DNA of 64,000 nt from Occultella glacieicola. GTDB taxonomy: Bacteria > Actinomycetota > Actinomycetes > Actinomycetales > Beutenbergiaceae. The notes beneath the pieces were generated by a model, which saw only the letters and a program-made list of their open reading frames with translations, searched no databases and was not told the origin of the DNA. Below, in pieces: positions 8,004 through 43,943 of the stretch (position 1 is its first letter; the number at the start of each line of letters is the position of its first letter). Position numbers and translations under genes: made by a program. The stretch covers positions 310,001 to 374,000 of the forward strand of contig NZ_SMNA01000006.1 of NCBI RefSeq assembly GCF_004353825.1, in the 5' to 3' direction.

Positions 8004-9110
8004 TCAGGCGCGCGGAGGCGCCGTGGTCTCGCCGACCACGAGTTCGGTGGGCAGCACCTGCTTGGCGACCCGGCCCCGCTCGGTCAGCTGGGCGAGGACC
8101 GACTCCAGGGTCGCCTCGCCGAGCGCGTGCTCGTGCTGGTCGATGTGGGTGAACCGGCGCACCTCGTCGTCGAACACGTGCTGCGGGGCATCGAACGACA
8201 CGACCGAGACGTCCCGGGGCACCTCCAGCTCGAGCTCGCGCAGGGCCCGGACCAGTAGCAGCCCGACGGCGTGCTCGGAGGCCACGAATCCGGTCAGTTG
8301 GGAGTTGGCGGTCAGGAACTCCTTGAGGCTGGCGAGGTCGTCCGCCACGCTCACCTCGTGGTCGGGGACCACCGAGGAGACCTTCCGGTACTCGTGCACG
8401 GAACTGAACGCCAGCCCGTGCTCGGCGTGGGCGTACACGAAGCCGCGGTGCCGGTCGTCGAGCGTGGACACGGTTCCGGAGGAGGTGATCAGCCCGATGT
8501 TGCGGTGCCCGAGCCCGAACAGGTGCTCGGCGGCGGCCCGGCCGGAGGCCACGTTGTCCGAGCACACGGTCGAGACCGGCAGTCCGTCCAGGTTCCGGTC
8601 CAGGATCACGAGCGGGAGCTGTGCCGAGACCAGGTCGAGGATCGCCGGGGCGATCCACTCCGAGGAGCCGGGCTGCAGGATCAGGCCGTCCACCCCGAGG
8701 TCGCGGTACTGGGCGAGCAGCCCCTGCTCACGGTCGTGGAAGCCCTCGGTCCGACCGAGCACCACGTTCGCCCGGCCGAGGCTGGCATCGAGGATGCCCC
8801 ACAGCACCCTGGTGCCGAAGCTGTCGTCGAAGCTGGTCAGCACGCAGCCGATCGTCGGCAGCGTCGTGGACCTGCGGTCCGGGCTGGGCCCTGCCGTCCG
8901 CGAGATCACCTCGGAGCCGAGCCGGGGGCGCCGCTTGATGTACCCGTCCCGGTCCAGCAGGTCCAGGGCGTGCTTGATCGTGATCGTGGAGACGCCGAAC
9001 TCCTCGGCGAGCTGGCTCTGCGTGGGCAGCCGCTCCCCCACGGCGATCGCGCCCGACTCGATCCGGCCCTGCAGGCTGGCGAAGACCCGGGCGTACAGCG
9101 CGTCGTTCAT
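8004..9110 (-). CDS. GntR-HTH / LacI-type ligand-binding transcriptional regulator
   Basis: A 368-residue hybrid regulator. Residues 1-70 form a GntR winged helix (LYARVFASLQGRIESGAI, LPTQSQLAEEFGVS, DGYIKRRPRLGS). The rest is a periplasmic-binding-like domain of LacI type (GCVLTSFDDSF, VDGLILQPG, GHRNIGLITS, DVSVVSFD), as in AraR-like sugar regulators. The ATG at 9110 is chosen because AGAGAGG lies 6 bases upstream; an earlier in-frame ATG lacks one. It probably represses a sugar-use operon and releases DNA on binding a sugar. No sugar genes adjoin it directly, so its targets are unknown. The promoter region contains a GGACATATTGA element shared with the inositol-region sites. Confidence 0.88.
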   Translation of the reverse strand: MNDALYARVFASLQGRIESGAIAVGERLPTQSQLAEEFGVSTITIKHALDLLDRDGYIKRRPRLGSEVISRTAGPSPDRRSTTLPTIGCVLTSFDDSFGTRVLWGILDASLGRANVVLGRTEGFHDREQGLLAQYRDLGVDGLILQPGSSEWIAPAILDLVSAQLPLVILDRNLDGLPVSTVCSDNVASGRAAAEHLFGLGHRNIGLITSSGTVSTLDDRHRGFVYAHAEHGLAFSSVHEYRKVSSVVPDHEVSVADDLASLKEFLTANSQLTGFVASEHAVGLLLVRALRELELEVPRDVSVVSFDAPQHVFDDEVRRFTHIDQHEHALGEATLESVLAQLTERGRVAKQVLPTELVVGETTAPPRA

Positions 9111-9130
9111 CGTGACCTCTCTGGGAAGAA

Positions 9131-9141
9131 TCAATATGTCC
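9131..9141 (-). promoter_or_regulatory. GGACATATTGA element upstream of the GntR/LacI gene
   Basis: On the minus strand these 11 bases match the core of the site at 18846-18863 exactly. They sit 21 bases before the regulator start, overlapping where a -10 box would be, so they may be an operator or just an AT-rich promoter core. Confidence 0.35.
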
Positions 9142-9180
9142 AGAGCGTAGCGCAGCGCGTCCGTCTCCACGTCGATCCGC

Positions 9181-9234
9181 GCCGATCCGGGCCGATGCGG
9201 GCCGATGCGGGCCGATGCGGGCCGATGCGGGCCG
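9181..9234. repeat. Tandem decamer repeat GCCGATGCGG
   Basis: Four exact copies of GCCGATGCGG (9191-9230) are preceded by one copy with a single change (GCCGATCCGG) and followed by a truncated one. The array fills the gap between the lactonase-like gene end (9240) and the GntR/LacI promoter. Copy number could vary by slippage; function unknown. Confidence 0.85.
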
Positions 9235-9239
9235 GAGCG

Positions 9240-10184
9240 TCAGTGGCCGTCCGTCGTGGCCGTGGGCGCAACCGGCCGGTCGACGAAGTCGACCTGTCCG
9301 ATGACCGAGCCGGGCTCGGCCCGGAACCGCGGCCGGCTCGGCTCGAGGAGGTCGAGGCGTCCGTCGAACGTGGCCGCCATGAAGGCACGCAGGTCGGCGA
9401 GGCCCGCAGGGTCCGGCGAGCCCTGGAACGTGCGTTCCAGCAGGGTGCCGTACTCGGTGTGGTCGTGGCCGGGCGCCAGCACCAGGTCCGGCATGGACGC
9501 CATCAGGGCGCGAATGCGGGCGATCGAGTCCAGCTGCAGGCGCTGGGCCCGGCGTCCGAGCATGATCGGGCGGAGCCGGTCGACGGCCAGGTGGCGGACG
9601 GTGTACAGCGTGTCGCCGGCGCAGAGCAGGTCCCAGCCGGGGCCCCGGACCAGCACGCTCAGGTGCCCCGGTGCGTGGCCCGGGGTCGGCAGCAGCACCA
9701 CCGAACCGTCGCCGAAGAGGTCCTGGGTGGCCGCGAACGATCCGAACGGCCCGGAGTCGAGCCCTACGAGTTCTGGCTGCAGCCCGAGACCCTTCAGGGA
9801 CGGCGTCCGACGGTACGGGAAGATCCCCAGGTTCCGGGCCCGCCACTGCTCGCGGGACACGAACACCCGGGAGCCGACGAGGTCCCGAACCCCGCCGAGA
9901 TGGTCCTCGTGCAGGTGGGTGAGGACCACCACGTCGATGTCCGACGGCGTCAGGTCCAGTCCGGCGAGTCGGTTCACCAGGTGCTCGCGTTGCTCGAGCT
10001 CGTACTCGTCCTCGTCGAACGCTGCCCGCAGCAGCGGGCCGTCGTAGTACTCGCGGTGGCGGTGTGCCTGGTCGTGGTTGATCCCGGTGTCGACGAGGAT
10101 CCGGCCGTGCTCCGGATGCTCGACGAGGAAGGCGAAGATCGGGACCCGGATGAAGTGGGACTTGTCACTCAGGAAGCTCACCAT
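9240..10184 (-). CDS. MBL-fold metallohydrolase, lactonase-like; 5' end probably frameshifted
   Basis: A 314-residue metallo-beta-lactamase-fold protein with the zinc motif HLHEDH (H90, H92, D94, H95), a later TPGHAPGH histidine and an AGDTLY aspartate. It resembles N-acyl-homoserine-lactone lactonases (quorum quenching), though many MBL hydrolases look alike. The ATG at 10184 has no good ribosome binding site. A 36-codon frame starting with GTG at 10288, overlapping the tetR stop by GTGA, encodes a typical family N-terminus (VLRIGATKVPFGQFYGG) and then stops at 10178-10180. One extra G in the GGGG run opposite 10205-10208 would join the two frames seamlessly. The gene is co-transcribed with the upstream tetR. 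Confidence 0.8.
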   Translation of the reverse strand: MVSFLSDKSHFIRVPIFAFLVEHPEHGRILVDTGINHDQAHRHREYYDGPLLRAAFDEDEYELEQREHLVNRLAGLDLTPSDIDVVVLTHLHEDHLGGVRDLVGSRVFVSREQWRARNLGIFPYRRTPSLKGLGLQPELVGLDSGPFGSFAATQDLFGDGSVVLLPTPGHAPGHLSVLVRGPGWDLLCAGDTLYTVRHLAVDRLRPIMLGRRAQRLQLDSIARIRALMASMPDLVLAPGHDHTEYGTLLERTFQGSPDPAGLADLRAFMAATFDGRLDLLEPSRPRFRAEPGSVIGQVDFVDRPVAPTATTDGH

Positions 10185-34507: not shown

Positions 34508-35998
34508 ATGTCGACGACGTCACCCGCGCAGACCACCCGCCTCCTCCCCCGCGCCGCCCCCGCCGACGCCGGCATCTCGGCCGCCGGGATCGGCGACTTC
34601 CTGGACGCGGTCGAGGACCGCGGGATCGAGTTGCACAGCCTGATGGTGGTGCACGGCGGCGCCGTGGCCGCCGAGGGCTGGTGGGCGCCCTACGCCCCGG
34701 AGCGACCGCACCTGCTGTACTCGCTCAGCAAGTCGTTCACCTCCACGGCGGCCGGGTTCGCGATCGCCGAGGGGCTGTTCTCCCTCGACGACCGGGTCGT
34801 CGACCTGTTGCCGGCGCACGTACCGGACGACGTCGATCCCGCGGTGGCGTCGCTCACCGTGCACCACGTGCTGTCGATGTCCACCGGGCACACGGCCGAC
34901 ACCCTCGGGACCGCCTACGACCTCGAACCCGGCGACCTCGTCCGCGGGTTCCTGCGTCAGCCGCCCCAGGACCAGGTCGGCTCGCGACACGTCTACAACA
35001 ACTCCTGCACCTACGTGGTCGCCACCCTGGTCCAGGAGCTCGGCGGCACCCACCTGACCGACTACCTGCGCCCCCGCCTGTTCGAGCCCCTCGGCATCAC
35101 CCCCGGGCACTGGGACGACGACGGCCACGGCCGGGCGATCGGCTTCTCCGGCCTGCACCTGACCACCGAGGCGATCGCCGCGTTCGGGCAACTGCTGCTC
35201 GCCGACGGCCGCTGGAACGGCGAGCAGGTGCTCCCGGAGGGCTGGGTGGCGCGGGCGACCCGGTCGCACGTGCGCACCGACTCCGACCCGGCGACCAACG
35301 TCGACTGGGCCCAGGGCTACGGCTACCAGTTCTGGATGGGGCGGCACGGCTTCCGTGGCGACGGCGCCTACGGGCAGTTCTGTGTGGTCGTGCCCGAGTC
35401 GGATCTGGTGCTGGCCACGACCTCGGTCACCGACGACATGCAGGGCATCCTCGACGCCGCGTGGGACCACCTGCTCCCAGCGGTCGGCACCGCGGACGCC
35501 GACCCGGCGGCCGGGGACCGGCTCGCCGAGCGGCTCGCGTCGCTCGCCCTGCCGGTGGTCGGGGCCGACCCGGGCGCCGCACCCACAGCGCCCATGGGGC
35601 CCGTATCGCCGGTCACGTTCGTGGTGCCCGACGGCGAAGGGCCGGGTCCGCTGCCGGCCGGCACCCGGGTGCAGGTCGCCCCGGCCGACGACGGCTGGCA
35701 GGCGAGCTTCACGTTCGACGGCGGCACCGTGCGCATCGACGGCGCGCCCTCGGTGTGGGTCGAGACCGAGGTGACGGCCGCCGTCGGGCACGACCGGAAC
35801 CCGACCCGGGGCCGCTCCCGGGAGGCCACCACGGTCCTCGCACGCGGCGGCTGGCGCGCCGACGGCACGTTCGAGGCGGACGTGCTGCTCGCGGAGATGC
35901 CGCACCGGTTCCGGCTGCGCGGCGCCGGCGGCGTGGCCACCGCCGCCTGGAACGCGGTGCCGCTGGCCGGGGAGCGGTTCGAGGCACACCTGCCCTGA
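34508..35998 (+). CDS. Serine hydrolase, class C beta-lactamase family
   Basis: A 496-residue protein with the penicillin-binding-protein/class C fold. The catalytic SxxK is in YSLSKSFTS and the YxN motif in VYNNSCTY. An HxG-like element may lie in YGYQFWMGRHGFRGDGAYGQ. Residues after about 380 form an additional beta-rich domain. No signal peptide is seen, so it is probably a cytoplasmic esterase or peptidase, not an antibiotic-resistance enzyme. It uses a leaderless start. Confidence 0.88.
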   Translation: MSTTSPAQTTRLLPRAAPADAGISAAGIGDFLDAVEDRGIELHSLMVVHGGAVAAEGWWAPYAPERPHLLYSLSKSFTSTAAGFAIAEGLFSLDDRVVDLLPAHVPDDVDPAVASLTVHHVLSMSTGHTADTLGTAYDLEPGDLVRGFLRQPPQDQVGSRHVYNNSCTYVVATLVQELGGTHLTDYLRPRLFEPLGITPGHWDDDGHGRAIGFSGLHLTTEAIAAFGQLLLADGRWNGEQVLPEGWVARATRSHVRTDSDPATNVDWAQGYGYQFWMGRHGFRGDGAYGQFCVVVPESDLVLATTSVTDDMQGILDAAWDHLLPAVGTADADPAAGDRLAERLASLALPVVGADPGAAPTAPMGPVSPVTFVVPDGEGPGPLPAGTRVQVAPADDGWQASFTFDGGTVRIDGAPSVWVETEVTAAVGHDRNPTRGRSREATTVLARGGWRADGTFEADVLLAEMPHRFRLRGAGGVATAAWNAVPLAGERFEAHLP

Positions 35999-36190
35999 CC
36001 CGGGCCCGGTCCGGGGCGGAGGGGATCCGCAGCCCATTGCCGCCGCGTCCACGACCGAGGCGTCCGCTCACCCGGTCGGCGTCCGAATTCACCCGCGGAC
36101 CACCCGATCAGCACCCTCCTCGCCGGCCTCCTCGCCGGTGACCATGGAGGACGTCCGGCAATGACGCCGGGCCCGCACCGGGAGTGACAC

Positions 36191-38560
36191 ATGAGCGACG
36201 ACGACCAGGGGTCGGGCTGCTGCGGCGACGACGGCCCGCTGTACTACGACGAGCAGGGCGACCTGCTGGACCTGCCGGTGATCGGCCCGCTCCTGAGCGG
36301 ACTGCCGTTCTGGCCCAGGCCGGCCCCGGTGGACCCACGGATCCCGGTGGAGCCACGGATCCCGATCGACCCACGGATCCCGGTCGAACCACACATCCCG
36401 ATCCAGGTCCGGCGCCCGTGTTCGCTGCCGGTGCTGAACGGGTCGTGGCTGATCGAGTTCACCGCGTCCCGGCCCATACCCGTGATCGCCGCGCAACAGA
36501 TCCGTGGGCCGATGCGGATCGAGGTCCGGGACACCTCGCTGCGGGTCAGCGGCGACGTGTACGTCCGGCGCACCCCGATCCTCGGCACCCTGGAGTCGAT
36601 GCGGACGGCCTTCCAGGACGAGGCCGAATCGTATTCGCCGGGACCGCCGGACGCCGGCGGGCAGGACCAGGACCTGAACCCCGACCTGGTCCTGCGCGGC
36701 GTCAACGGGGCGCCGCTGTTCCCCTCCTACCCCCAGCTGCCGACGAACCAGTACTCCTGGTACTTCCGCTCCACCGGCGTCACCTACTCCGGTGGCACGC
36801 TCACCTTCGGCCTGCGCCGGCACGTCTGGAACCGGACCAGCCAGGACTTCGTCTCGACGGACTCCGGGACGATGACCCTGACCTGCACGCGCAGCATCCT
36901 CGCACGCGCCGAGGTCGCCACCATGTCCGGCACCGCGACGATCGGAGGGGTCGCGTACCACGTGAACGCGAGGAAGACGTCGAACTCCTACCGGGGCTGC
37001 GCCGTCGAGGTGGACGTCATGACCGGCCGGGACTGGCCCGCCTCGGCGCTCAACCACGGCGTCTCGCGGACGTTCCAGAACGTGTACGCGTCGGCCGGCT
37101 GGGACGTCCGGGTGCGGGTGGACCAGCTCGACATCCCCAGCGATGCGTCGCTGAGCATGGCCGAGCTGCAGACCCTGCTGACCAGCCACCGTGGCCCCGG
37201 CGCCGCCGACCCGTGGCGGCTCTGGCTGCTCATCGGCTCCGCGCAGGGTGGGCTCCTCGGCGTCATGTTCGACGACGACTCGGTCCCCCGGGAGGGCGCC
37301 GTCGGGTTCGCCGACGCGACGCTGAGCAACTCGAGCGTGATCGAGGCGGGCGCCCGCGGTCAGGCGATCAACGACGTACCGGCGGCGCTGCTGCGCACGA
37401 TGGTCCACGAGGCGGGGCATGCGCTCAACCTGTTCCACCCCAAGCACGACGTCCACGACCCGCCGATCGGCACCGAGATCATGAACCAGACCGGCGACGT
37501 CATCTCCTTCGCGTCCGTCTCGAACCCCTACCCGGGCAATGCCACGTTCGCGTTCGCCGTGCATGACCGCGACTCCCTCATCCACGCCCCCGACCCCCAG
37601 GTGCGCCCGGGCTGGCAGAACTTCGGGTGGGGGCACGGCAGCCTCTCCTCCGGTCTTCCGGTCCCGACCGACGCCTCCGGTCTGGGCGGCGGGGACGACG
37701 CCGAGGGCCTCCGTCTGGAACTGACCCTGCCGGGTGAGATCTACGTCGGCGAGTACGTGACCGCCGAGCTCACGCTCACCAACACCGGCGACGAGCCCCG
37801 TGAGGTGACGGCCAGGCTGAACCTCGCCGAGGGGTACCTGCGACTGCAGCACGTGCTGCCGGACGGCAGCCTCGACCAGGTGCGGGACGTCGTCGTCGCC
37901 TGCGGAACCCGCCCGACGGCGGTGCTCGCCCCGGGCGAGTCGCTGTCCGCCCGTATGCAACTCTTCTTCACCAGCGAGGGGATCACCTTCTCCCAGCCCG
38001 GCACCCATGTGGTCCGCGCCGAGTTCGACGTGGACCTGTTCAGCACGGCCCGCAGCCCGCGGGCCACCGTGTACGTGCGCACGGCCGCCACGGAGACCGA
38101 GGTGACCATCGCCGCCCAGACCCTCGACTCCGCCGTCGGGCGCGCGTTCGCCCTGGGTGACTTCGGCACGGACACCGCCGTTCGCGACCGGCTGGTCGCC
38201 GTGGCCGAGGCCCACCACGACGCCGACACCGGCGCCGCCGCGGCCCTGGTCCTGGCGAACTCCTTCGCCCGCGCGCACGTGGACCATCGGTCCGACGCCC
38301 GCGCGGCGGACGACGGCGGGCGGGCCGCTGCCCGGAAGGCGGCGCCCGAGGAGGCCAAGCACTTCCTCGACCTGGCCATGCAGGGCCGGTCGGCGGAGGA
38401 GATGGTGCGGCTCGCGGCGACCGTGGCGAGCCCCGTGGAGTCCGATGCCCCGGTGGTCACGGACGCCCTCGGCCGGGCGAAGCGGGCCCGCAAGGGCAAG
38501 GCTGACCTGGCTGCGGCGGAGGCCATCGTGGCGGACTTCGTGGCAGCATCACCCGCATGA
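36191..38560 (+). CDS. Uncharacterised metzincin-like metalloprotease with Ig-like and helical C-terminal parts
   Basis: A 789-residue protein I cannot assign to a named family. Its N-terminus has a hexapeptide repeat (about residues 47-70) of the form DPRIPV. The centre carries a zinc-protease signature HEAGHALNLFH (H406, E407, H410, H416), followed 15 residues later by a possible Met-turn at M431 in EIMNQ, as in metzincins, although the usual Gly is Asn413. Residues 506-632 look like an Ig-like beta domain (ELTLTNTGDEPREVTARLNLAEGY). The C-terminal 150 residues are helical and Ala/Asp-rich. No signal peptide or membrane segment is seen. Its stop overlaps the next gene by ATGA. Confidence 0.75.
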   Translation: MSDDDQGSGCCGDDGPLYYDEQGDLLDLPVIGPLLSGLPFWPRPAPVDPRIPVEPRIPIDPRIPVEPHIPIQVRRPCSLPVLNGSWLIEFTASRPIPVIAAQQIRGPMRIEVRDTSLRVSGDVYVRRTPILGTLESMRTAFQDEAESYSPGPPDAGGQDQDLNPDLVLRGVNGAPLFPSYPQLPTNQYSWYFRSTGVTYSGGTLTFGLRRHVWNRTSQDFVSTDSGTMTLTCTRSILARAEVATMSGTATIGGVAYHVNARKTSNSYRGCAVEVDVMTGRDWPASALNHGVSRTFQNVYASAGWDVRVRVDQLDIPSDASLSMAELQTLLTSHRGPGAADPWRLWLLIGSAQGGLLGVMFDDDSVPREGAVGFADATLSNSSVIEAGARGQAINDVPAALLRTMVHEAGHALNLFHPKHDVHDPPIGTEIMNQTGDVISFASVSNPYPGNATFAFAVHDRDSLIHAPDPQVRPGWQNFGWGHGSLSSGLPVPTDASGLGGGDDAEGLRLELTLPGEIYVGEYVTAELTLTNTGDEPREVTARLNLAEGYLRLQHVLPDGSLDQVRDVVVACGTRPTAVLAPGESLSARMQLFFTSEGITFSQPGTHVVRAEFDVDLFSTARSPRATVYVRTAATETEVTIAAQTLDSAVGRAFALGDFGTDTAVRDRLVAVAEAHHDADTGAAAALVLANSFARAHVDHRSDARAADDGGRAAARKAAPEEAKHFLDLAMQGRSAEEMVRLAATVASPVESDAPVVTDALGRAKRARKGKADLAAAEAIVADFVAASPA
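36329..36400 (+). repeat. 18-base tandem repeat coding for the DPRIPV-type hexapeptide
   Basis: Four copies of an 18-base unit, with codon variation, encode VDPRIP, VEPRIP, IDPRIP and VEPHIP inside the metalloprotease gene. It forms a Pro-rich, probably rigid spacer. Confidence 0.8.
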
Positions 38561-39312
38561 GCTCGACGCTGACGCTGACCCTGACCGTGCCCGCGCGGTC
38601 GGGGTCGGACCAGGCCCTGCTCGGCGTGGTCGCCCTGACGAACACCGGCGCCGAGCCGGTCACCGTGAACGCCCGGCTGAACCTCGCCGACGGCGACCTG
38701 GTCATCGACGCGGCCGGGCCGGCGGGCACGCTCCGGGCCGGCTGGCCATGGCCGGCGGACAGCCTCCCCCGCGAGACGGAGCTCGGGCCGGGTCGAACGC
38801 TCGAGTCGGGCGTCCTGCTCCTGTGCACCGCGACGTCCGAGCCGCTGCTGCCCGACCCCGGCCCGTACACGCTCACCGTGTCCTACCGGGCGCACAGTGC
38901 CGGCAGTGCCGGTCGTGCCGGTGGTCCCGGGAGTGCCGGTGGCGGCGATCGATCCGGCGAGGTCACGGCCGAACCGGTCGCCCACACACGCACCCCCGCG
39001 ACCGGGCCGGCGGTGGCCGCGCTCCGGGACCGGGACGTGATCCAGTCACTGGTGTCCGCCTCGGTCCTCGGGCAGGCGGCCGACGGCCTCGCCGCCGTGG
39101 CCGAGCGGGGCGGCACGAACGCGGTGCTCGTGGCGCTGACCTCGGCGAGCACCGGGGTGGCCGACCTGACCGCCACCGCCGGCGACCCGGTGGCCGTGGC
39201 CGTCGCCGTGACCGCTGTGGTCCCGAGCACCGACCCACGCCGGGCCGACCTCGCCGACGAGTTCGCCGGCGACCCCCGCGCCACCGCGATCCTCGCGGAC
39301 CTGCCCCACTGA
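38557..39312 (+). CDS. Uncharacterised protein with the same Ig-like module as the upstream metzincin-like protein
   Basis: A 251-residue protein starting at ATG 38557, overlapping the previous stop by ATGA. Its N-terminal 100 residues parallel the Ig-like module of the preceding protein (VALTNTGAEPVTVNARLNLADGD against ELTLTNTGDEPREVTARLNLAEG). A Gly/Ser-rich linker and an Ala/Val-rich helical tail follow, with VIQSLVSASVLGQAADGLAAVAE echoing the partner's helical end. There is no protease motif. It looks like a duplicated partner subunit, perhaps an inhibitor or chaperone of the protease. That function is an inference. Confidence 0.7.
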   Translation: MSSTLTLTLTVPARSGSDQALLGVVALTNTGAEPVTVNARLNLADGDLVIDAAGPAGTLRAGWPWPADSLPRETELGPGRTLESGVLLLCTATSEPLLPDPGPYTLTVSYRAHSAGSAGRAGGPGSAGGGDRSGEVTAEPVAHTRTPATGPAVAALRDRDVIQSLVSASVLGQAADGLAAVAERGGTNAVLVALTSASTGVADLTATAGDPVAVAVAVTAVVPSTDPRRADLADEFAGDPRATAILADLPH

Positions 39313-39365
39313 ACCCGGCATCGTTCTCCGTCGCGCGACGGACGCGGCCGTGGTGGGCGGCCGGA

Positions 39366-39371
39366 TAACCT
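39366..39371 (+). promoter_or_regulatory. -10 box (TAACCT) of the first histidine kinase gene
   Basis: TAACCT lies 8 bases before the ATG at 39380, which has no ribosome binding site. Confidence 0.4.
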
Positions 39372-39379
39372 CGGTAGTC

Positions 39380-40894
39380 ATGTTCACCCCGTCGAGTTCG
39401 CCGACCGCGGGCCCCGGGCCGGCCGACGCCGCCGGGGCCGACGGGCAGGTCCGGGCCGCCTGGTCCACCCGCCTGTTCGCCTGGCTGAACGACCCCGGGG
39501 AGCCGCTCTGGGAGCGACCCGGCCCCTCCCGGGACCAGCAGCGCCGCGACATCGTCGGCGCCCTCGCGTTCGTCCTGGTGGGCCTCGGCATGACGGTCGC
39601 GACGAAGTCGTTCGGCATGGTGAACGAGGCGGAGGCCACCTGGCGCGCGTTCGTCGCCGTTGCCGCGATGATCGCCCCGTTGGCCATCCGTAGGCGTTTT
39701 CCGCTGATCGCGCTGCTGATCTCGTCGGTGCTGTTCCTGACGCTCAGCTACCTCAGCCCCGAGGCCAGCGTCCAGGCCCCCTTCCAGGTGGCGTACTTCG
39801 CCACCCTCTATGCGGCCGTGGCGTGGGCGCGGGACCGGCGACTCCTCTGGATCTCCGTGGCGCTGGTGCTGCTCGAGATGGCGGCCTGGATCGTCATCTC
39901 GTTCACCATCTCCCGGGGCATGTTCGCGGAGTCCTTCGGGGACGGCGTCGGCCCGCTCGAACCGGTCGTCGCCTACGGGCTGTACACGGCCGTGCTGAAC
40001 CTTGCGTACTTCGGCGGCGCCATCCTCGTGGGCCGCAACTCCTGGCGGACCGCCCTGCACCGGTCCCGGCTCGCCGAGCAGGCGGAACGGATCCGGGCGC
40101 AGTCCGACGAGCTCGCCCGCCGCGCCGTCGTGGACGAGCGGCTGCGGATCGCCCGCGAACTGCACGACGTGGTGGCCCACCACATCTCGGTCATCGGGAT
40201 CCAGGCCGGCGCCGCTCGGCGGGTGCTGACCCGATCACCGCAGTCGGCCGAAGGGGCGATGCGCACCATCGAGGGCGCCAGCCGCGAAGCCGTGGGTGAG
40301 ATGCGGTCCCTGCTCGGGGTGCTGCGCAGCGAGACGGAGACCGGCCGCCCGGGTGACTCGGGTGACTCGCGCGCGCCCGAGCCCGGGCTCGCGGACCTGG
40401 ACGGGTTGGCCGAGCGGCACCGCCGTCGCGGTCTGCAGGTGACCCTGACCCGGGTGGAGGCCGCGCCGGGCGACCTGGACCGGGTGCCGCCGGCGCTCGG
40501 GCTGTCCGTGTACCGCTGCGTCCAGGAGTCCCTGACGAACGTGGCCCGGCACTCCACCGCGGGCTCCGCGTCTGTCACGCTCAGGACCGGGACCGCGGCG
40601 GCCGGGTCCGAAGTCGGCGATGGCGATGCCTCCGACGCGCCGGCCGGCCCGTTCGTGGAGGTCGAGGTGCTCGACGACGGACAGCCGCGTGGCGGTACGT
40701 CCGGGACCGGGTACGGTCTTCGCGGGGTGAGCGAACGGGTCTCGCTGCACGGCGGCCAGGCCGAGATCGGCCCACGCCGGACCGGCTCGGGCTGGCGGGT
40801 CCGGGCCCGCTTCCACCTCCGCGACGCCGGCCCGCACCCGAGGCCGGAACCAGGCACCGACACGAACACCGAGAGCGAGCTCAAGGCCCGATGA
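39380..40894 (+). CDS. NarL-type sensor histidine kinase
   Basis: A 504-residue membrane kinase. About five hydrophobic segments lie in the first 240 residues. Then comes the dimerisation/phospho-acceptor helix with RIARELHDVVAHHIS (the His of ELHD is phosphorylated), and an HATPase domain with RCVQESLTNVARHS and GTGYGLRGVSERV. The signal is unknown. It partners with the response regulator that overlaps it by ATGA and probably controls the ABC exporter downstream. Confidence 0.92.
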   Translation: MFTPSSSPTAGPGPADAAGADGQVRAAWSTRLFAWLNDPGEPLWERPGPSRDQQRRDIVGALAFVLVGLGMTVATKSFGMVNEAEATWRAFVAVAAMIAPLAIRRRFPLIALLISSVLFLTLSYLSPEASVQAPFQVAYFATLYAAVAWARDRRLLWISVALVLLEMAAWIVISFTISRGMFAESFGDGVGPLEPVVAYGLYTAVLNLAYFGGAILVGRNSWRTALHRSRLAEQAERIRAQSDELARRAVVDERLRIARELHDVVAHHISVIGIQAGAARRVLTRSPQSAEGAMRTIEGASREAVGEMRSLLGVLRSETETGRPGDSGDSRAPEPGLADLDGLAERHRRRGLQVTLTRVEAAPGDLDRVPPALGLSVYRCVQESLTNVARHSTAGSASVTLRTGTAAAGSEVGDGDASDAPAGPFVEVEVLDDGQPRGGTSGTGYGLRGVSERVSLHGGQAEIGPRRTGSGWRVRARFHLRDAGPHPRPEPGTDTNTESELKAR

Positions 40895-41646
40895 CCATCC
40901 GCGTCGCCATCGTCGACGACCAGGCCCTGGTCCGGTCCGGCTTCGCCATGGTGCTCTCGGTCGAGGACGACATCGAGGTGGTCGGCCAGGCGTCCGATGG
41001 CGCCCGGGCCGTCGAGCTGCTCGCCGCCACGCCTGCCGACGTGGTGCTGATGGACGTGCAGATGCCGGTACTGGACGGGATCGCCGCCACCGAGCGGATC
41101 GTCGCCGCCGGTGGTCCGAAGGTGATCATCCTCACCACGTTCGACCGGGAGGACTACCTGTTCGCGGCGCTGCGCGCGGGCGCGAGCGGGTTCCTGCTCA
41201 AGAACGCCGACCCGGACGACCTGGTCGCCGCGATCCGGGCCGTCGCCGACGGCCATGCCCTGCTGTCCCCGGAGGTCACCGTCAAGGTGATCGCGCGACT
41301 GGCCGCCGAACCGGCGCCGTCCGGCACCCCCGCCCGGACGACCGGGCCGACCGGCCCGACCGGCCCGAGCGAGGGCGGCTCGAGCGAGAACGGCGCACGC
41401 TGCCGGCAGGCGACCAGCACGACCGTGTCGGCCCACGCCGTCGAGAGTCTGACCGCGCGCGAGCGGGACGTGCTCGCCCTCCTCGCGGAGGGGCACTCGA
41501 ACGCGGAGATCGCGAGCGAGCTCTTCGTCGGGGAGTCCACCGTGAAGACCCACGTCTCCCACGTGCTCGCCAAGATCGGGGCCCGGGACCGGGTCCAGGC
41601 CGTCGTGTTCGCGCACCGGGCCGGCCTCGTCGGCCACCACGACTGA
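40891..41646 (+). CDS. NarL/FixJ-family response regulator
   Basis: A 251-residue regulator. The receiver domain has the acidic VDDQ pocket, the phosphorylated Asp in VLMDVQMPVLDG and a Lys in FLLKNADPDD. The C-terminal LuxR helix-turn-helix reads LTARERDVLALLAEGHSNAEIASELFVGESTVKTHVS in overall pattern. A Gly/Pro/Thr-rich linker of about 45 residues, longer than usual, separates them. The gene overlaps the kinase by 4 bases. Confidence 0.92.
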   Translation: MTIRVAIVDDQALVRSGFAMVLSVEDDIEVVGQASDGARAVELLAATPADVVLMDVQMPVLDGIAATERIVAAGGPKVIILTTFDREDYLFAALRAGASGFLLKNADPDDLVAAIRAVADGHALLSPEVTVKVIARLAAEPAPSGTPARTTGPTGPTGPSEGGSSENGARCRQATSTTVSAHAVESLTARERDVLALLAEGHSNAEIASELFVGESTVKTHVSHVLAKIGARDRVQAVVFAHRAGLVGHHD

Positions 41647-41749
41647 CGACCCGGCGCAGCCGGTCTCCTCCCGACGACCCGGTCTCCCCCTCGCGGCGGA
41701 TCTTGACGGCTCCCCCGTGCGGCCGACGCGCCGTGGCATCCCCGTTTCC

Positions 41750-41755
41750 TAGGCT
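41750..41755 (+). promoter_or_regulatory. -10 box (TAGGCT) of the ABC exporter operon
   Basis: TAGGCT lies 66 bases before the exporter start, giving a leader of about 58 bases. A GGGAGG ribosome binding site near 41811 serves the ATP-binding gene. Confidence 0.35.
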
Positions 41756-41820
41756 CGGACCAGGCCGGACGGCAGCGACCAGCGCCACGGCGAGGACCAG
41801 CTCGACAACGGGAGGACCAG

Positions 41821-42714
41821 ATGAGGCAGACAGACGCCACGCTGGAGGTGCGGGGACTGACCCGGCGCTTCGGCGAGAAGGTGGCGGTCGACGACGTGTC
41901 ATTCACCGTGGAACCGGGCCGGATGACCGGCTTCGTCGGCGCGAACGGTGCCGGCAAGACCTCGACCATGCGGATGATCATGGGCGTCCTGCAGATCCAC
42001 GGCGGCGACGTCATCTGGGACGGCCGGCCGATCACGCCCGCGGACCGCTCCCGGTTCGGGTACATGCCCGAGGAGCGGGGCCTGTACCCGAAGCAGGGCA
42101 TCCTCGACCAGCTCTGCTACCTGGGCCAGCTGCGCGGGATGAGCCGTGGCGATGCCGCGAAGGAGGCCACGCGGCTGCTGGAGCGGTTCGGGCTGGCCGA
42201 CCGGGTCAAGGACAAGCTCGAGTCGCTGTCCCTCGGGAACCAGCAGCGCGTCCAGATCACCGCGTCGCTCCTGCACGGACCGACCGCGCTGATCCTGGAC
42301 GAGCCGTTCTCCGGCCTGGACCCGGTGGCCGTGGACTCGATGGTCGACCTGCTCCGTGACCGCCTCCGCCAGGGTGTGCCGGTGTTGTTCTCCAGCCACC
42401 AGCTCGACCTCGTCGACCGGCTCTGCGACTCGCTCGTGGTCCTCTCCGACGGCAAGGTCATGGCCGCGGGCGACGCGAACGACCTCCGCAACGCCGGGCC
42501 GACGCGCTACCGCATCGTCACCGCACCGGACGCCGGCTGGCTCCGGGACGTCCCGGGCGTCACCGTCCTCGATGTCGACGGCCCGCGCGCCGTCCTCGAA
42601 CTGGCCGAGGGCACCCGCGAGCCCCTGCTCAAGCGCGCCGCGGACCGCGGCCTCACGGAGTTCGCGCCGATCGTCCCGTCCCTGTCCGAGATCTACCGCG
42701 AGGTGACCCGATGA
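41821..42714 (+). CDS. ABC transporter ATP-binding protein (NatA-like)
   Basis: A 297-residue ATPase of an ABC-2 exporter. Walker A GANGAGKTS, signature SLGNQQR (a variant of LSGGQ, as in NatA), Walker B LILDEPFSGLD and H-loop SSHQ are all present. The C-terminal part after 210 resembles the extra domain of Na+/drug exporters. It overlaps the permease gene by ATGA. It follows a two-component system, which suggests regulation by it. Substrate unknown. Confidence 0.93.
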   Translation: MRQTDATLEVRGLTRRFGEKVAVDDVSFTVEPGRMTGFVGANGAGKTSTMRMIMGVLQIHGGDVIWDGRPITPADRSRFGYMPEERGLYPKQGILDQLCYLGQLRGMSRGDAAKEATRLLERFGLADRVKDKLESLSLGNQQRVQITASLLHGPTALILDEPFSGLDPVAVDSMVDLLRDRLRQGVPVLFSSHQLDLVDRLCDSLVVLSDGKVMAAGDANDLRNAGPTRYRIVTAPDAGWLRDVPGVTVLDVDGPRAVLELAEGTREPLLKRAADRGLTEFAPIVPSLSEIYREVTR

Positions 42715-43943
42715 CCGCCACCGACCGCTACCCGCAGACCCTGGCGCCGGCCCCGGACGGCCCGCCGGTGCCGCCGTCCCCCGTGCGTCACCCCTGGCTC
42801 GTGGTCACCACCCGCGAGATCATGGTGAAACTGACGGACAAGAGCTTCGTCATCTCCACCGTGGTGACGCTCGCGATGATCGCAGCCAGCGTCATCATCG
42901 GCTCCGTGGTCGGCAACCGCTCCTCCGACTTCACGGTCGGCACCAGCCAGGCCGAGGCGGCCGTGGTCGCCGAGGCCTCGACGGAGGTCGTCACCGAGGG
43001 CGGGGACACCCTCGAGCTCACCGAGTTCGACTCCGAGGACGCCCTGCGCACCGCGGTGCTGGACGGCGACGTGGACGCCGGCCTGGTCGCCGGCGACGAC
43101 GGCTGGGTGCTGCTCGGCGGCACCGAGGTGGACACCGATCTCGCGGCCGCGCTGACGACGGCCGTCAGCGAATCCGTCCTCGCGGCCAACGCCGAGGCCG
43201 CCGGCACCACCCTCGATGAGCTCACCGCAGGCTCGACGGTCACGACCGAGTACCTCGACCCCGATGCCGACCGGGGCGCCCTCGCGTTCGTCGTCGGCTT
43301 CGTCTTCGCGTTCCTGTTCTACATGGCCGCGATCGTCTTCGGGATGACCATCGCCAACTCCGTTCTTGAGGAGAAGCAGAACCGCGTCGTGGAGATCCTC
43401 GCGACCGCCATCCCGATCCGGCAGCTGCTCTACGGCAAGGTGCTCGGCAACTCGCTGCTGGCGTTCGCGCAGATCCTGCTCTACTGCGTGGTCGGCCTCA
43501 CCGCGGTCAACCTCACCGGCCTGGCGGGCGACATCGGCTGGATCCTCAGCGCGTCCGGCTGGTTCATCGCCTTCTTCGTGGTCGGCTTCACGGCGCTGGC
43601 CGCGGTCTGGGCCGTGCTCGGCTCGCTGGCCAGCCGCAGCGAGGACCTGCAGTCGAACACCGGACCGATCATCACCGTGATCATGGTGGCCCTGTTCGTG
43701 GGGCTGTTCGCCGAGGGCATCTGGCTCGACGTCGCGAGCTTCGTCCCGGTGGTCTCCTCGGTCGCGATGCCGATCCGGATGCTCGCCGGGGACGTCGCGC
43801 CCTGGCAGGGCATCGTCTCCCTGGCCCTGACCGCGGTCGCGGCGTACGGGCTGCTACGGCTCGGCGAACGCATCTACCAGCGTGCGGTGATGCAGGGCGG
43901 CACGGCCCTCACCTGGCGCCAGGCGCTCAAGCTCCAGGCCTGA
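42711..43943 (+). CDS. ABC-2 type exporter permease (NatB-like)
   Basis: A 410-residue membrane protein. One helix near residue 50 is followed by an external domain of about 130 residues, then about five helices from residue 185 on, including the conserved MTIANSVLEEKQNRVVEILAT cytoplasmic loop of this family. It forms the channel of the exporter with the overlapping ATPase gene. Substrates in this family include sodium, drugs and peptides; none can be assigned. Confidence 0.92.
   Translation: MTATDRYPQTLAPAPDGPPVPPSPVRHPWLVVTTREIMVKLTDKSFVISTVVTLAMIAASVIIGSVVGNRSSDFTVGTSQAEAAVVAEASTEVVTEGGDTLELTEFDSEDALRTAVLDGDVDAGLVAGDDGWVLLGGTEVDTDLAAALTTAVSESVLAANAEAAGTTLDELTAGSTVTTEYLDPDADRGALAFVVGFVFAFLFYMAAIVFGMTIANSVLEEKQNRVVEILATAIPIRQLLYGKVLGNSLLAFAQILLYCVVGLTAVNLTGLAGDIGWILSASGWFIAFFVVGFTALAAVWAVLGSLASRSEDLQSNTGPIITVIMVALFVGLFAEGIWLDVASFVPVVSSVAMPIRMLAGDVAPWQGIVSLALTAVAAYGLLRLGERIYQRAVMQGGTALTWRQALKLQA

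Follow-up and report, generated by a model that had tools for sequence, protein, structure and literature searches.

A predicted metzincin without signal peptide and the adjoining paralogue of its C-terminal half in Occultella glacieicola

Two overlapping genes of the actinobacterium Occultella glacieicola, ORF1 and ORF2, form a real and conserved pair that is apparently undescribed. By profile comparison we conclude that ORF1 encodes a metzincin of an unnamed family, most of whose members stand alone; a phylogenetic tree of C-terminal halves, together with profile searches, indicates that ORF2 most likely arose by duplication of the C-terminal half of ORF1 in the ancestry of one subfamily, here called the paired subfamily. 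We hypothesize, at a probability of roughly 0.45, that the pair consists of a leaderless metzincin and a translationally coupled, non-catalytic partner that would bind the protease to regulate or assemble it; proteolysis, binding and regulation are what we infer from the sequences.

The gene pair and its conservation

The window analysed here is a 64,000-nucleotide stretch of one contig (NZ_SMNA01000006.1, positions 310,001 to 374,000) of the 5.3 Mb O. glacieicola genome; relatives in the same genus include Occultella aeris and O. gossypii. A preliminary description of the window had pointed to two overlapping genes at 36191-39312, the first encoding a protein with HEAGHALNLFH and a Met-turn-like IMN 15 residues later and no signal peptide, the second a protein lacking the protease motif. 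All of this was upheld (Table 1): both reading frames are in place and share ATGA, hydropathy finds no hydrophobic N-terminal segment in either protein, and ORF2 has no catalytic domain. In the relatives from Occultella and Ornithinimicrobium, too, GGAG or GGGAG precedes the start of ORF1. Scans for promoters and terminators gave no hit, which is uninformative in a high-GC actinobacterium.

Table 1. Features of the ORF1-ORF2 pair (nucleotide positions are those of the window)
Feature	Position	Strand	Residues	Description and basis
Putative ribosome-binding site GGGAG, 5' of ORF1	36177..36190	+		Direct reading of the sequence
ORF1	36191..38560	+	789 aa	ATG start 36191, stop 38560; predicted leaderless metzincin; ORF plus alignment, profile, selection
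ORF1 N-terminal beta-rich region			about 75-264
ORF1 predicted metzincin domain			about 263-480
Extended zinc-binding motif HEAGHALNLFH	37406..37438	+	406-416	HExxHxxNxxH type
Met-turn IMN	37478..37486	+	430-432	Met431 lies 15 residues past the last His
ORF1 Ig-like module, recurring in ORF2	37703..38086	+	about 505-632	Profile homology to ORF2
ORF1 predicted helical tail			about 633-789
ATGA start-stop overlap, ORF1/ORF2	38557..38560	+		No clear Shine-Dalgarno sequence before ORF2
ORF2	38557..39312	+	251 aa	ATG 38557, stop 39312; non-catalytic paralogue of the ORF1 C-terminal half; profile E-values, tree
ORF2 Ig-like module			about 1-146
ORF2 predicted helical tail			about 147-251

The preliminary description had named conserved pairing in distant genomes as support for its reading, and the two genes occurring apart as evidence against it. 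In the paired subfamily ORF2 adjoins ORF1 in all seven loci, which belong to four Occultella, Ornithinimicrobium cerasi, a further actinobacterium (G264) and, on a plasmid and with broken frames, the archaeon Halocatena salina. Wherever checked in the bacterial loci the overlap is kept, as ATGA or GTGA, and because this start-stop overlap is conserved, translation of ORF2 is probably coupled to that of ORF1. The Halocatena protease homologue is 44% identical to ORF1, and directly 3' of it lies the ORF2 homologue in two frames (9015-9350 and 9218-9838 of L019), the first piece being recognised at E 1e-11. The N-terminal part of this protease is also in a different frame, so that both genes carry frame breaks (L019 6732-9838), which points either to a decayed copy or to assembly errors. 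The genes were found apart solely as lone proteases of distant subfamilies: no ORF2-like gene stands beside the solo homologues in the available flanks, some of them short, and a search of 394 genomes with an ORF2 profile gave no ORF2 without ORF1. A weak match to that profile in G279 was set aside, being one Ig-like stretch with no adjoining protease homologue.

The genes around the pair in Occultella, Ornithinimicrobium and G264 have nothing in common except the pair itself. In the window a beta-lactamase-family serine hydrolase, recognised by Pfam, lies upstream (34508-35998), and a histidine kinase, a LuxR-type response regulator and an ABC transporter, identified by reading, lie downstream (39350-43943); these flanking genes are conserved within Occultella only. 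Searches of phage sequences and IMG/VR found no viral copy of either gene, a tblastn search of plasmids found no copy of ORF2, and the anti-phage defence models of PADLOC gave no match.

ORF1 as a metzincin

Searches with the window proteins against Pfam, NCBIfam and PADLOC, and against the PDB as single sequences, returned nothing usable, ORF1 alone having no match in Pfam and a chance-level one in NCBIfam. Relatives of ORF1 were collected from whole genomes, plasmids and GTDB contigs, and when a profile of 13 diverse relatives was compared with all PDB chains, the top matches were metzincins throughout (MMP-14, ulilysin, myroilysin and serralysins). A profile of 14 catalytic domains matched ulilysin best (6e-6), in an alignment that spans the zinc helix to the Met-turn, followed by myroilysin (2e-4), the snake reprolysin BmooMP (6e-4) and MMPs. 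His406, Glu407, His410 and His416 are invariant among the 13 homologues and again among the 14 catalytic domains; so, in the catalytic-domain alignment, are Met431, whose Met-turn is aligned by profile to FMNY of ulilysin, and, among family-specific residues, His465. It is from these profile matches and from the invariant zinc histidines and catalytic glutamate that we conclude that ORF1 is a metzincin. The preliminary description had recognised no family for it; this stands in that no Pfam or NCBIfam family claims the protein, and gives way to an unnamed, mostly solo metzincin family.

The Pfam Reprolysin, M10 and M66 models match single members of the family; Reprolysin_3, 4 and 5 (M12B) are the commonest, with 8 of the 14 catalytic domains matched (best 5e-6), and one member, from Embleya, exceeds the gathering score of a Reprolysin-like model, while the window protein matches none of them. 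Nor does the window protein match the M43 (pappalysin) model, which recognises two of the 14 relatives weakly (best 0.013). Most metzincins have Gly at the eighth position of the zinc motif (HExxHxxGxxH/D), where ORF1 has Asn, as does ulilysin; a literature search for HEXXHXXNXXH found no paper. A Cys-Gly near the N-terminus, present in the six bacterial paired members and absent from Halocatena, recalls the cysteine switch of pappalysins (PMC6949598), which lies in a short propeptide, and is just a lead.

The metzincin likeness is borne out by profile searches and not by structure prediction. AlphaFold models of ORF1 and ORF2 reached pLDDT 41 (mean) and 51 from alignments of only four or five sequences, and the metzincin domain of ORF1, with its shallow alignment, about 25. 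Foldseek matches of the Ig-like module were CARDB, FN3-like and Ig folds, a hint only, given the weak underlying model. The helical tail that had been proposed for both proteins is indeed predicted in each, solely in these low-confidence models.

Origin of ORF2 and selection on the pair

An Ig-like segment had been said to recur in the second protein, which was taken to derive from a duplicated C-terminal part, and both claims are corroborated. The segment reads LTNTGDEPREVTARLNLAEG in ORF1 and LTNTGAEPVTVNARLNLADG in ORF2, and the homology extends over residues roughly 505-714 of ORF1. Because tblastn relates the two proteins at E 1.4e-4, an ORF2 profile finds ORF1 at E 5e-9 and a family profile finds the ORF2 of G264 at E 1e-14, the likeness is, on these comparisons, real homology rather than chance. 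A maximum-likelihood tree built from C-terminal halves puts ORF2 with the ORF1 proteins of the paired subfamily (support 89/91), apart from all solo homologues; this grouping assigns the duplication, which the profile E-values also support, to the lineage that gave rise to the paired subfamily. All seven ORF2 proteins group together in that tree with weaker support (47/63), too little to fix the exact order of the duplication and the transfer between bacteria and archaea.

Among the paired loci dN/dS is 0.10-0.46 for ORF1 and 0.25-0.94 for ORF2, the highest ORF2 values coming from distant comparisons with high dS. By this measure both genes are under purifying selection, which would mean that function is retained; compared module by module, ORF2 evolves faster than ORF1, by a factor of about 1.7-3.5 in the Ig module and tail.

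Distribution of the family and small neighbouring genes

Within the taxonomic family, close relatives of ORF1 occur in Occultella only (4 of 24 genomes), and distant ones are rare and patchy in the class: 10 of 394 genomes, a count in which one genome is that of the window and one match covers the Ig-like part only. Homologues were also found in plasmid records of Halocatena, Caballeronia, Nonomuraea, Methylobacterium, Embleya and Arthrobacter, and in Salipiger; the protease family, in Actinomycetota and Pseudomonadota, consists mostly of solo members. In Embleya (L023 from 5936) and G447 (L017 from 349) the N-terminal repeats look hemopexin-like by eye, which Pfam did not confirm, and in Salipiger abyssi (L027 2916-7188) a multicopper oxidase gene shares its last part with the metzincin ORF.

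Solo metzincins of two other subfamilies have unrelated small neighbours of their own. Those of Caballeronia (L020 8962-9360, plus strand) and the actinobacterium G434 (L036 5904-6227, minus strand), which belong to different phyla, are homologous (36% identity, E 3e-20), and their shared small protein is a candidate cognate metzincin partner conserved across phyla. A second, unrelated family of small proteins (E 3e-9) is encoded directly upstream of the metzincin in G659 (L039 6705-7094, plus strand) and G186 (L056 10071-10409, minus strand). Neither family of small proteins has a Pfam match.

Proposed function and alternatives

In the mechanism that we propose, ORF1 would be a zinc endopeptidase made without a signal peptide; ORF2 would have begun, in the ancestor of the paired subfamily, as a separate copy of the C-terminal half of ORF1 with its Ig-like module and helical tail. 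Ribosomes that terminate on ORF1 probably reinitiate at once on ORF2, so that the two proteins would be made together. The contact between them most likely runs through the duplicated module and replaces a contact of like with like. Bound in this way, ORF2 may be a regulatory subunit, or it may keep ORF1 inactive, or properly assembled, until the protease is triggered or released. The reading of ORF2 as a regulator is weakened by the solo relatives, which manage without ORF2, and by two departures from what is known: to our knowledge, characterised bacterial metzincin-partner pairs are exported, whereas ORF1 and ORF2 have no signal peptide, and known metzincin inhibitors are unrelated to the enzyme they act on, whereas ORF2 corresponds to a part of ORF1.

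The same module could instead serve a non-inhibitory end, with ORF2 a structural or targeting subunit, an adaptor through which a substrate or scaffold would be attached to the protease, in a constitutive hetero-oligomer that replaced an ancestral homo-oligomer. ORF2 is the protease's own non-catalytic module, and such modules are a usual origin of heteromer subunits; its gene lies directly 3' of that of the protease, with probable translational coupling. Yet ORF2 changes faster than the matching parts of ORF1, and no conserved neighbour is fit to be the scaffold, and we regard such an adaptor as possible though unlikely. We favour regulation over pure scaffolding because ORF2 evolves faster, because precedents exist and because other subfamilies have unrelated small neighbours. 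That ORF2 is a bystander duplicate with its own function, standing beside ORF1 by chance of origin, while the protease acts alone as a housekeeping or stress peptidase, would suit both a mostly solo family and the fast divergence of ORF2. It is hard to square with co-occurrence in seven of seven loci over two domains of life, a conserved overlap and purifying selection on ORF2, and we consider it improbable.

The missing signal peptide also brings to mind export by another route, with protease and companion as leaderless cargo of a contractile injection system encoded elsewhere in the genome. A complete eCIS-type locus does lie on another contig of the window's genome (G000:C11, about 165-187 kb; L060 3228-19001 and L061 177-7800), where reading of the translations identified PAAR, DUF4157-like, sheath, tube, LysM/VgrG-like, gp25 and baseplate proteins and an AAA ATPase, the sheath being confirmed by Pfam. 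All four Occultella carry sheath genes, as do several homologue-bearing genomes, yet so do about half of the 20 members of the taxonomic family that lack the pair, and sheath genes are absent from many homologue-bearing genomes (G083, G395, G387, G447, G240, G150 and G659); the pair, moreover, does not adjoin the eCIS. Examined by co-occurrence, sheath presence does not track the pair, and this explanation is left unsupported and very improbable. The regulating or assembling partner is the reading that we retain.

Comparison with known systems

In the zinc motif ORF1 resembles the pappalysins (MEROPS M43): ulilysin shares Asn at the eighth position with ORF1 and has an MNY Met-turn, and mirolysin has Asp there rather than Gly (PMC6949598). 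Similarity of the ORF1-family profile to ulilysin is limited to the active-site helix and the Met-turn; ulilysin and mirolysin are secreted zymogens, unlike the leaderless ORF1, and no duplicated partner gene was found described for either. Likeness to the Reprolysin-like Pfam models (M12B) resides in the catalytic domains of relatives and not in the window protein.

As a gene arrangement, the pair resembles three described systems. In Pseudomonas aeruginosa, Mep72-BamI and AprA-AprI each consist of a metzincin and an adjacent cognate partner gene, and BamI complexes Mep72, relieving its toxicity (PMC4334185). Adjacency is shared with ORF1-ORF2; in Mep72-BamI, by contrast, the protease is exported, bamI is the upstream gene, no derivation of the partner from the protease is described, and Mep72 bears carbohydrate-binding modules where ORF1 has its Ig-tail half. 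In Listeria the metzincin gene mtz is followed directly by that of its partner Tim, and the two are conserved as a pair (PMC8235301), as ORF1 and ORF2 are; unlike them, Mtz-Tim is a phage-linked system of a secreted protease and a lipoprotein, in which Tim resembles TIMP and is cleaved by Mtz. The pair is thus best described as a variation on the known theme of a metzincin with a cognate partner, distinct in the partner's origin from the protease and in the want of signal peptides.

Implications

Metzincins are generally exported enzymes. The family to which ORF1 is assigned has no name and is missed by the standard libraries, and its paired form is made without a signal peptide. Tentatively, and as a whole doubtful, a broader picture can be drawn: a metzincin with a dedicated inhibitor or activator copied from its own C-terminal half, translationally coupled to it and carried across the divide between bacteria and archaea, in a family several of whose subfamilies may each have gained a small partner of their own. 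Were ORF2 to restrain or activate ORF1, a domain of the protease would have given rise to the protease's regulator, and the recurrence of differing small neighbours in other subfamilies suggests that a cognate partner is generally needed.
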